64,000 nucleotides of DNA. Source: Klebsiella aerogenes. GTDB taxonomy: Bacteria; Pseudomonadota; Gammaproteobacteria; Enterobacterales; Enterobacteriaceae. Below, in pieces: positions 58,463 through 61,173 of this stretch. The position numbers and the translations under genes are program-made. The stretch's first letter is position 1. Each line of letters starts with the position of its first letter. Below the pieces are notes generated by a model. The model saw only the letters and a list, made by a program, of their open reading frames with translations. It was not told where the DNA came from and ran no database searches. The stretch lies in the NCBI GenBank assembly GCA_029027985.1, contig CP119076.1, forward strand, positions 1,550,001 through 1,614,000, written 5' to 3'.

Positions 58463-58535
58463 GGGTTGCTACTGTACCCAGGCAAAACCTAAGCGCTTCC
58501 GCCGTATCTGGCCGGGAGTGCTTAGGTTTTTTTTT
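58463..58535 (+). terminator. Antiterminator (RAT) and terminator module 1, before the porin gene
   Basis: GGGTTGCTACTG, four bases, then CAGGCAAAACCT matches the ribonucleic antiterminator bound by BglG/LicT proteins. Its end overlaps the left arm (AACCTAAGC) of an intrinsic terminator whose right arm GCTTAGGTT runs into nine Ts. The two structures are mutually exclusive, so BglG-type protein binding would allow read-through. Confidence 0.88.
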
Positions 58536-58661
58536 GCTCTTAATTTAATGGTGAATAAATGATGATGTAAATCAGTGTATTGCGGTTTGGTGAGATCTGG
58601 CATAGCGGCGGTTTAAATACTGACGGCCATGCTTTAACTAATTAAAAAATAAAACTACAGA

Positions 58662-58682
58662 ACAGGCAATTAAATTGCCTGT
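58662..58682. promoter_or_regulatory. 21-bp dyad upstream of the porin gene
   Basis: ACAGGCAATT, one base, AATTGCCTGT: two perfect 10-bp arms, 39 bases upstream of the porin ATG and downstream of terminator 1. It could be an operator or a leader hairpin. No known protein is recognised. Confidence 0.45.
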
Positions 58683-58721
58683 GGCAGCTTATTACCTTTA
58701 CTCAATCACAATGGATATCTC

Positions 58722-60086
58722 ATGTACAATTATAAAATAAAACATGCGCTGCTATTCGCGGTGTTCGGGGTGGCGGCATCTACGGCCAATGCCGCTGAAA
58801 ATACGCCATGGAACGGTACCGTATTAGGTTTTGAACCACCCCAGAGCGGATTATTAGGCGAGATGTTAGGTATCCGCCCGATCCTTGAAGATAACGGTTT
58901 TCGCTATAATTTAGGCTATCTCAATGAGATGGGCTATAACGCCGCAGGCGGTTACGATCATGATAAACACCTTGCCTATATTGACCAGGTGGCGCTGACG
59001 TTTACCCAGGACCTCGAACGCTGGACCGGCATGGCCGACGCGCGCATTGAAGGTAACATCGTCAACCGTAACCATGATGATAACCTCACCACTAAACGTC
59101 TGCAGGATCCACGGGTTAACTTTAACGATCTGTCGCAGGAGAGCTGGGGCGGCGGTTCGATAACGCGTCTTGGTTGGCTGACCTTTGCCCGCAGCTTTGA
59201 TGACCGGCGTCTGACGTGGCGTATCGGTATGATGAACAAGGTGCAGACCTTTGACCAGATTATCCCTTGTGATTTTCAGCTACTGTCGCAGTGCGGCGGT
59301 AAATCTGCCAACTCGTTGACCTGGAATAACTGGAACATTCATACCTGGGGCACCACGCTGGAATACAAGCTGACGCCCGTGCTGACGCTCAAAGGTGGGG
59401 TGATGGAACAAAACCCCCAAGCGGCTTCCCGCAGCCACGCCTGGAGCTGGTCGACTAAAGGCAGTAAAGGCATTTTATTGCCGCTGGAAATTGAGGCGCG
59501 CCCGCGGCCGTTTGGCTTGCCGGGGGCGTATAATCTCGGTGTGGTTTTCACGAATGCACCGCAAAGCGACCTGTATAGCGGTAAATCCGGCGGCGCCGGC
59601 GCAACCGACCCGGAAGGTTACGCTCAGCATAACCGTACCTGGTTTATGTATGCCGGGATGAACCAGCAAATTACCCGTCATGCTGACGATCCTCATCGGG
59701 GAATGAGTGTCTCCTTAAGCGGCAGCCTCAGCGATCAGCGCAGCAACTACATTCACACCGCCGTTGCTGCCTCAATGCGCTACCGCGGGCTGTTTGATGC
59801 CCGCCCCGAGGACTGGATTGGCTTCGGTCTGACCTGGATGGACATGAGCAGCCATTACGCGCGCAATCAGCAGTATATGAATACCCTGAGCGGGGCGCAG
59901 GATTACGCCGACCCTGCATATCAGCCAGTTGCCGGTCATTCGATTAACGGCGAGCTGTATTACCGTTTCCGCCCGGTCTCCTGGCTTGAACTACAGCCCG
60001 GCCTGCAATACTGGCACCGCCCCGGCGGCGTGGCGCAAACGCAGGATGCGTGGGTCATCGAATGGAAAACGGTGGTCACGTTCTAA
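58722..60086 (+). CDS. Carbohydrate porin, OprB family
   Basis: Outer-membrane sugar channel of 454 residues. A signal peptide MYNYKIKHALLFAVFGVAAS ends at NA-A. The mature part is a predicted beta-barrel with alternating aromatic strands and ends in the outer-membrane terminal Phe (WKTVVTF). Family-like blocks are RVNFNDLSQESWGGGSITRL and SLSGSLSDQRSNYIHTAVAA. The gene lies between two antiterminator modules upstream of bglG-type genes, so it probably brings beta-glucosides into the periplasm. E. coli bgl instead has a LamB-type porin, BglH, at the operon's other end. Confidence 0.85.
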   Translation: MYNYKIKHALLFAVFGVAASTANAAENTPWNGTVLGFEPPQSGLLGEMLGIRPILEDNGFRYNLGYLNEMGYNAAGGYDHDKHLAYIDQVALTFTQDLERWTGMADARIEGNIVNRNHDDNLTTKRLQDPRVNFNDLSQESWGGGSITRLGWLTFARSFDDRRLTWRIGMMNKVQTFDQIIPCDFQLLSQCGGKSANSLTWNNWNIHTWGTTLEYKLTPVLTLKGGVMEQNPQAASRSHAWSWSTKGSKGILLPLEIEARPRPFGLPGAYNLGVVFTNAPQSDLYSGKSGGAGATDPEGYAQHNRTWFMYAGMNQQITRHADDPHRGMSVSLSGSLSDQRSNYIHTAVAASMRYRGLFDARPEDWIGFGLTWMDMSSHYARNQQYMNTLSGAQDYADPAYQPVAGHSINGELYYRFRPVSWLELQPGLQYWHRPGGVAQTQDAWVIEWKTVVTF

Positions 60087-60175
60087 GGTATATCGCACAA
60101 TGAGTCGCGAGCTGTATCACGTTTTTATCCCGTCGCGCTTGAGTCGCAACAAGAAGTTGATACAGTGCGGAAGTT

Positions 60176-60241
60176 GGATTGCTACTGCTTCGGCAGGCGA
60201 AACCTGATTACCTGGCATTTGTCGGGGGTCAGGTTTTTTTG
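60176..60241 (+). terminator. Antiterminator (RAT) and terminator module 2, before the antiterminator gene
   Basis: GGATTGCTACTG, five bases, GCAGGCGAAACCT is a RAT-like sequence. It overlaps the terminator left arm AACCTGA, whose right arm TCAGGTT continues into eight Ts. It lies between the porin and bglG-type genes. Confidence 0.87.
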
Positions 60242-60255
60242 TTTCTGGGGTTCAT

Positions 60256-61089
60256 ATGCTAATCGCCAAAGTACTTAATAATAACGTGGTGGTAGTAGTC
60301 AATGAGCAGCAGCGCGAACAGGTGGTGATGGGGCGAGGGCTAGCCTTTCAGAAGCGCGTGGGCGACTCGTTAGACGAAAGTAAGATTGAAAAAGTCTTCG
60401 CTCTACAGAGTGATGAACTGGTTGGCCGCTTAGGCGAATTACTCAGTCAGATACCGTTAGAAGTGATGACCACCTGCGATCGGATAATCGAGCTGGCCCG
60501 CGTGAGGCTGGGTAAGTTGCAGGAGAGTTTATACATTACCCTGACCGACCACTGCCACTTTGCCATCGAGCGGCAGAAAAACGGCGTTGCGATTCGTAAT
60601 GTGCTGCTGTGGGAGATTAAACGGCTGTATCCAAAGGAGTTTGAGCTGGGTCAGGAGGCGAGGGCCATTATCGCCCGTCGGCTTGGCGTCGAACTGGCGG
60701 AGGATGAAGCCGGGTTTATTGCCCTGCATCTGGTGACGGCGCAGCTAAATAGCGAAATGCCGGAAGTGATGCACGTGACTCGGGTGATGCAGGAGATCCT
60801 GCAACTGGTGAAGTATCAGCTGCAGCTGAATTATGACGAAGAGTCGCTCAGCTACCAGCGCTTCGTGACTCACCTGAAGTTTTTCGCCCAGCGTATGCTA
60901 ACGCGCACGGTGGTGCCGGATGACGACGTCACATTGCACAGCGCGGTAAAAGACAATTACGCCAAAGCGTGGAAGTGTGCGGAAACGGTGGCTAAGCACC
61001 TGCAAAAAAATTATCAGCGGGCGCTGACGACCGAAGAGATTATGTTTCTTGCCATTCATATTGAACGGGTAAGAAAAGAGGGGCGTTAA
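60256..61089 (+). CDS. BglG/LicT-family transcriptional antiterminator
   Basis: RNA-binding antiterminator controlled by the PTS, 277 residues. The N-terminal CAT RNA-binding domain (residues 1-55) has NNNVVVVVN and [23 protein letters not shown]. It is followed by two PRD domains with the regulatory His residues H101, H158, H206 and H268. All four expected positions are present, so both PTS activation and EII-mediated inhibition are likely. It should bind the three RAT sites of this operon. Resembles BglG/ArbG; the exact name cannot be fixed. Confidence 0.92.
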
Positions 61090-61104
61090 TCCCCCAATAA
61101 AACT

Positions 61105-61173
61105 GGATTGTTACTGCATGATGCAGGCAAAACCTGAGCGCGACGCCAACCGGCGTGGTTCTCGGGTTTTTTT
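61105..61173 (+). terminator. Antiterminator (RAT) and terminator module 3, before the EIIBCA gene
   Basis: GGATTGTTACTGCATGATGC then AGGCAAAACCTGAG is very close to the E. coli bgl RAT. It overlaps the terminator left arm AACCTGAG, whose right arm CTCGGGTT (one G-U pair) runs into eight Ts. It corresponds in position to the second terminator of the E. coli bgl operon. Confidence 0.9.

Follow-up and report, generated by a model that had tools for sequence, protein, structure and literature searches.

In Escherichia coli the bgl genes (bglGFBHIK) make up one silent operon whose porin gene (bglH, of the LamB type) is distal and ungated; a ribonucleic antiterminator (RAT) hairpin that overlaps with an intrinsic terminator is located before bglG and another before bglF. 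The bgl promoter of this organism is activated by CRP (PMC9499468). The locus described here belongs to Klebsiella aerogenes and occupies the last part of a 64,000-nucleotide stretch of contig CP119076.1 (positions 1,550,001 to 1,614,000; hereafter "the window", in whose numbering all unprefixed coordinates are given). It comprises genes for an OprB-family porin, a BglG-type antiterminator, a BglF-type permease and a BglB-type phospho-β-glucosidase, and contains three RAT/terminator modules (RAT1/T1, RAT2/T2 and RAT3/T3) preceding the porin, bglG and bglF, respectively. Our analysis indicates that the antiterminator very probably controls these three gates in two neighbouring units, P1-RAT1-T1-oprB and P2-RAT2-T2-bglG-RAT3-T3-bglF-bglB, P1 and P2 being promoter-like regions.

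The likeness to E. coli bgl is substantial, the products of bglG and bglF being 61% and 58% identical to their homologs and both loci having the order G-F-B and a RAT in front of G and of F. The differences are that E. coli has two RATs instead of three, that its LamB-type porin lies at the distal end without a gate whereas here an OprB porin comes first and has its own RAT and promoter-like region, and that E. coli bgl adjoins phoU whereas dusC lies upstream of the present locus.

A Klebsiella locus having the same gene order and the same chromosomal place, yohI(dusC)-porin-antiterminator-PTS-glucosidase (KPN_02581-02577; PTS, phosphotransferase system), was reported by Sankar et al. 2009 (PMC2646131), who assigned two terminators to each bglGFB unit; neither the text nor the legend of that article mentions a RAT preceding the porin. 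All three modules of the window recur in the type strain of K. pneumoniae (L003). The bglF-glucosidase stretch also displays 82.5% DNA identity to an insert in E. coli LY180, which we take to be the casAB genes of Klebsiella oxytoca; unlike the present locus, the matched stretch is without the antiterminator and porin parts. That one antiterminator can serve several RATs is known from LicT of Bacillus subtilis (targets bglPH and licS), which is of the same family and operates in a Gram-positive organism having neither outer membrane nor porin. In Enterococcus faecalis the BglG/SacY-type antiterminator NagY controls nagY-nagE and a second, unlinked RAT-gated target, hylA (PMC9981650); this system, too, is Gram-positive, responds to another sugar through another RAT and has as its extra target a lyase rather than a porin. 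Searches of the open-access literature yielded no account of a porin RAT or of multi-RAT regulons in enterobacteria. The mechanism is already known, and it is the three-gate layout and its extent that look new. The layout is common to K. pneumoniae, Raoultella and several Enterobacter-like genera, and would subject entry through the outer membrane to the RNA switch that also governs uptake and hydrolysis.

Three RAT/terminator modules

The canonical RAT structure, known from work on LicT, consists of 2 + 3 + 4 pairs separated by two internal loops. An Rfam scan yielded no model matching the RAT and covariance models were therefore built for the purpose, one including the RATs of the window (R1) and one made of 28 RATs without the window's own (R2). 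In an alignment of 40 sequences the canonical structure has 97.5% of its cells paired, compared to 26-63% when the structure is slid along the sequences. A first, loose motif search had given many chance matches and was replaced by a filter combining RAT, T-run and fold.

All three modules are on the + strand. RAT1, the porin gate (58463..58489; GGGTTGCTACTGTACCCAGGCAAAACC), has an upper stem of 3 bp and is found with 36.3 bits by R1 and, genome-wide, with an E-value of 3.4e-6 by R2; it shares six bases with terminator T1 (58484..58535; -31.1 kcal/mol, z -6.9), which has a run of nine T. RAT2, the bglG gate (60176..60204; GGATTGCTACTGCTTCGGCAGGCGAAACC; E 3.1e-8 genome-wide with R2), is followed by T2 (60199..60240; -21.1 kcal/mol, z -4.9; 7 T), the weakest of the three terminators, and RAT3, the bglF gate located within the bglG unit (61105..61134; GGATTGTTACTGCATGATGCAGGCAAAACC; E 1.8e-11 genome-wide with R2), by T3 (61129..61174; -26.2 kcal/mol, z -4.5; 8 T). 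The RAT hairpins are 27-30 bases long and the final six bases of each are shared with the 5′ arm of its terminator. The terminators are not listed by a generic promoter/terminator scan, whereas direct folding reveals all three; the z-scores of the leader folds are -6.2, -3.4 and -5.1 for RAT1, RAT2 and RAT3, respectively, and 0 of 200 shuffles were equally stable.

A search of the 5.0-Mb genome with R1 gave exactly three RATs and the search with R2, which is ignorant of the window's own sequences, returned the same three, the next best match having an E-value of 0.3. As a positive control, E. coli K-12 was found to contain exactly two RATs, one before bglG and one before bglF, and none before bglH. 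The original prediction, made from the sequence of the window, had placed RATs overlapping terminators at 58463, 60176 and 61105, had proposed folding of the three leaders as a check, and had contrasted a porin placed first behind a gate of its own with the two modules and distal porin of E. coli bgl; on all these points it was borne out.

A single antiterminator gene and its probable sensing chain

The antiterminator gene (60256..61089, + strand; 277 aa) encodes a CAT_RBD domain (1.5e-22) followed by two PRD stretches (1e-42), which is the domain order of LicT, and its product resembles the LicT structures over the whole length (E 1e-54 to 1e-68). The four PRD histidines, H99, H158, H206 and H268, align with those of LicT as expected of the family, the NNN and GRG motifs are present in the RNA-binding domain, and the target leaders contain, in three copies, the RAT hairpin overlapping an intrinsic terminator that such a protein would recognize. 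The permease (61230..63089, + strand; 619 aa) has the EIIB, EIIC and EIIA domains of the PTS, and its C26, H308 and H541 align with C24, H306 and H547 of E. coli BglF. Since the PRD histidines, the RNA-binding motifs and the phosphorylation-site residues of the permease are all kept, the sugar-sensing chain looks complete. The porin (58722..60086, + strand; 454 aa) matches PF04966 with an E-value of 6e-68, its residues 82-454 covering positions 2-372 of the 372 of the profile as in OprB carbohydrate porins, and resembles porin B of Pseudomonas (4gey/4gf4; E 7e-71). The folds of regulator and porin are thus settled by solved relatives, and the operon context suggests that the latter may be a sugar-selective channel for β-glucosides. 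The bglG unit continues with the GH1 gene encoding the bglB-type phospho-β-glucosidase (464 aa; 63105..64000, + strand), which extends beyond the end of the window.

By likeness to E. coli and B. subtilis, the window's antiterminator would bind the RATs and cause read-through under PTS control: in the absence of substrate BglF would keep BglG phosphorylated, so that transcripts would stop at T1, T2 and T3, whereas in the presence of a β-glucoside BglG would bind the RATs and the polymerase would read through the terminators. The genome contains one CAT_RBD gene, in agreement with the prediction that a single antiterminator serves all three RATs; a second regulator for RAT1 was considered and rejected on this ground.

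Two probable units acting mainly in parallel

Promoter-like elements precede RAT1 and RAT2 but not RAT3. P1 contains a CRP-like site (58375..58390, + strand; TGTTATTCCGTTCACA) with one mismatch to TGTGAn6TCACA, matched in 0.8% of the shuffles of the intergenic stretch, and an extended -10-like element TGnTAnnnT (58438..58446, + strand; TGATATTGT). Most porin leaders share TGTTAn6TCACA at about -80; among the 22 distinct ones the CRP-like site is found at -79 to -84 from the RAT in 16 and the extended -10-like element at -25 or -27 in 15. P2 consists of a CRP-like site (60106..60121, + strand; CGCGAGCTGTATCACG) with three mismatches, whose position, about -62 from RAT2, is conserved in most relatives, of a -35-like TTGAGT (60139..60144, + strand), whose TTGAG is invariant in 11 aligned loci, and of an extended -10 resembling TGnTACAGT (60158..60166, + strand; TGATACAGT) at about -18 from RAT2. 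Of the bglG leaders, 45/51 have the motif TGnTA...T between -15 and -19 relative to the RAT; by comparison, it occurs anywhere in 60 nt in only 2/47 of the internal bglF leaders that were used as control. From these elements both P1 and P2 would appear to be CRP-dependent.

Porin and regulator had been predicted to be attenuated in series, which would have a single long P1 transcript pass RAT1, RAT2 and RAT3 in turn. The genes are in fact collinear, RAT2 follows the stop of the porin gene at a distance of only ~90 bases and no intrinsic terminator is listed between them, so that P1 transcripts may possibly run on into RAT2. That they are required to do so is nevertheless improbable, in view of the conserved promoter-like region before RAT2 and of its fate in three relatives. 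In Raoultella planticola and Raoultella sp. BIGb0138 (loci L002 and L005) ~4 kb including an opposite-strand gene separate the porin from P2, and both RATs are kept with P2-RAT2 intact; in a congener whose BglG is 99% identical (L110) a deletion corresponding to 58402-60094 of the window has removed the porin, most of P1 and RAT1, and P2-RAT2 has been kept. Regulator synthesis therefore need not pass the porin gate. Furthermore, in two draft genomes (G103 and G213) the RAT-porin unit and bglG are on separate contigs, the presence of a single CAT_RBD gene being confirmed in G103. Taken with the conservation of the P2 elements, the insertion, deletion and unlinked-porin loci indicate that the gates act mainly in parallel; the part of the prediction that stands is that porin and regulator each have a gate, whereas their disposition in series probably gives way to two units.

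The Raoultella insertion itself (L002:7408-11506) fits precisely between the stop of the porin gene and P2, and the gap in L005 is of similar size; in R. planticola the inserted genes were judged by eye to be AraC-like, MFS-like and GH43-like, the AraC-like one lying on the opposite strand.

Possible grading of the three gates

The strength of the gates was compared on 160 modules from the window and its relatives, selected with the RAT, T-run and fold filter, using predicted energies. The mean energy of the terminator is -21.3 kcal/mol for bglG, -28.3 for bglF and -30.1 for the porin, and the same ranking is seen in pairs within loci: the strength of the porin terminator exceeds that of the bglG terminator in 18/18 loci and that of the bglF terminator in 18/20, and bglF exceeds bglG in 43/46. 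The hairpin that remains once the RAT has formed is likewise more stable at the porin (mean -19.7) than at bglG (-11.1). These differences make a stepwise induction plausible: given the weakness of its terminator, the bglG gate would probably always allow some regulator to be made, whereas the porin, behind the tightest gate, would probably require the most active BglG.

Grading had originally been attributed, tentatively, to differences in affinity among the RATs; on such a reading a weaker porin RAT would bind the antiterminator last. The RATs do differ, and consistently across species, the upper stem of the porin RAT being shorter than that of the bglG RAT in 14/18 loci and longer in none, and its predicted energy being weaker in 17/18. 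The terminators, however, differ more cleanly and by a larger amount (mean 8 kcal/mol), and they do so also for bglF versus bglG, whose RAT energies do not differ. Moreover, stem energy is not protein affinity, and the comparison covers the stems rather than the bases contacted by the protein. RAT affinity is accordingly an unlikely, though not negligible, candidate, and the terminator is more likely to be the element that tunes the response. The locus offers a natural system in which to study how one RNA-binding protein may rank several targets by the strength of the terminator instead of by the promoter.

A number of considerations weigh against this predicted picture of two graded, parallel units. 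The CRP-like site of P2 is by itself unremarkable, being equalled by 30% of shuffles, and P1 is without a good -35. The loci compared are kin, so that the paired counts are not independent and tests overstate their independence, and the predicted energies take no account of pausing or of folding during transcription. Finally, T1 would leave a residual hairpin of -20.7, two bases before the T-run, even with RAT1 formed, for which reason full read-through into the porin is not assured.

Conservation and probable origin of the porin gate

The survey of gene order in relatives, which had been suggested as a check, revealed a porin RAT in every porin-first locus found, namely 20/20 linked loci which, with both unlinked ones, amount to 22/22 porins heading a unit; of the porins that follow bglB, on the other hand, none (0/13) is preceded by a RAT. 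In Serratia and others the operon has the order RAT-bglF-bglB-porin, and it is the leaders of these bglF-first operons that the porin leaders resemble. TAA follows ACC in 9/9 bglF-first and 17/22 porin leaders, compared to 1/98 of the other classes; a run of at least eight T follows GGT in 9/9 and 21/22, respectively; the CRP-like site has the same position in both; and the RAT of two bglF-first loci (L091 and L096) is identical to that of a porin locus (L085). In light of this resemblance the porin probably retained the old leader of an ancestral bglF-bglB-porin operon when bglF-bglB came to be placed behind bglG, which is more likely than that the porin RAT arose de novo. In the midpoint-rooted porin tree 17/20 porin-first loci fall in one group; the direction of the rearrangement is not fixed by this tree.

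The porin RAT could alternatively be a relic that terminates transcription without useful control, with expression of the porin starting beyond T1. The 186-base leader that follows T1, with its conserved hairpins, and the score of RAT1, the lowest of the three, would fit this idea, which is made very improbable by the integrity of RAT1 and T1 throughout the 22 distinct porin-heading loci, even though the stems have turned over, and by the fact that no + strand promoter-like site is listed between T1 and the porin gene. The hairpins are small and located at 58613-58630 and 58662-58682, with one pair altered on both sides in three species; they could act as a translation element or be targeted by a small RNA. 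An alternative way of gating a porin is seen at L102:6915 and L103:6929, where an OprB porin lies behind an esterase-like gene that is itself preceded by the RAT.

RATs beyond this layout

RATs were found in 53 of the 159 genomes sampled in the family, many of which have 3-6. The genes behind them, assigned by Pfam on representatives only, include OprD-type porin and SurE-type genes (L088, L120, L138), a LamB porin with an esterase-like gene (L135), His-phosphatase genes and others. The presence of up to six RATs in a relative, some of them at unlinked porin genes, implies that BglG regulons act in trans; in one genome (G153) six RATs are accompanied by a single CAT_RBD gene. Other porin genes in related genomes are thus predicted to respond in trans to β-glucosides. 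A more general proposal, to which we would give slightly less than an even chance, is that enterobacterial BglG proteins run multi-site trans regulons in which OprB, OprD and LamB porins are RAT-gated, often through inherited leaders, and in which the ranking of the terminators (bglG < bglF < porin) orders induction.

In three genomes (G001, G153 and G067) a LamB-type (bglH-like) porin gene is preceded by a tandem of two complete RAT/terminator modules with a spacing of ~95-110 bases, at L175:6266-6391, at L173 (minus strand, near 6079 and 6172) and at L176:6083-6223, respectively. The tandem of G001 adjoins genes resembling pstB-phoU, the location of bgl in E. coli. In its stem, ACCGC/GCGGG, the second RAT of the pair agrees with the bglF RAT of E. 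coli, which suggests that the tandems may be two bgl leaders left after loss of bglG.

Units in which OprD-type porin and SurE-type genes are RAT-gated occur at L088:5202, L120:6088, L127:5345 and L138:5755 and in clusters L113, L116, L128 and L129; in this group of loci divergent RAT-gated His-phosphatase and SurE genes flank one bglG, and each locus has up to four or five RATs. Divergent RAT pairs are also present by sulfatase-like and radical-SAM maturase-like genes, close to bglG, at L126:4568-4830 and L133:16726-16970.

As to the surroundings of the locus in the window, the porin gene is preceded by dusC (57433-58365) and, farther upstream (53743-57359), by genes which, judged by eye from the list of open reading frames, resemble those of a gentisate/3-hydroxybenzoate pathway, namely a cupin dioxygenase, a fumarylacetoacetate-hydrolase-like protein, a GST-like isomerase and an FAD hydroxylase.
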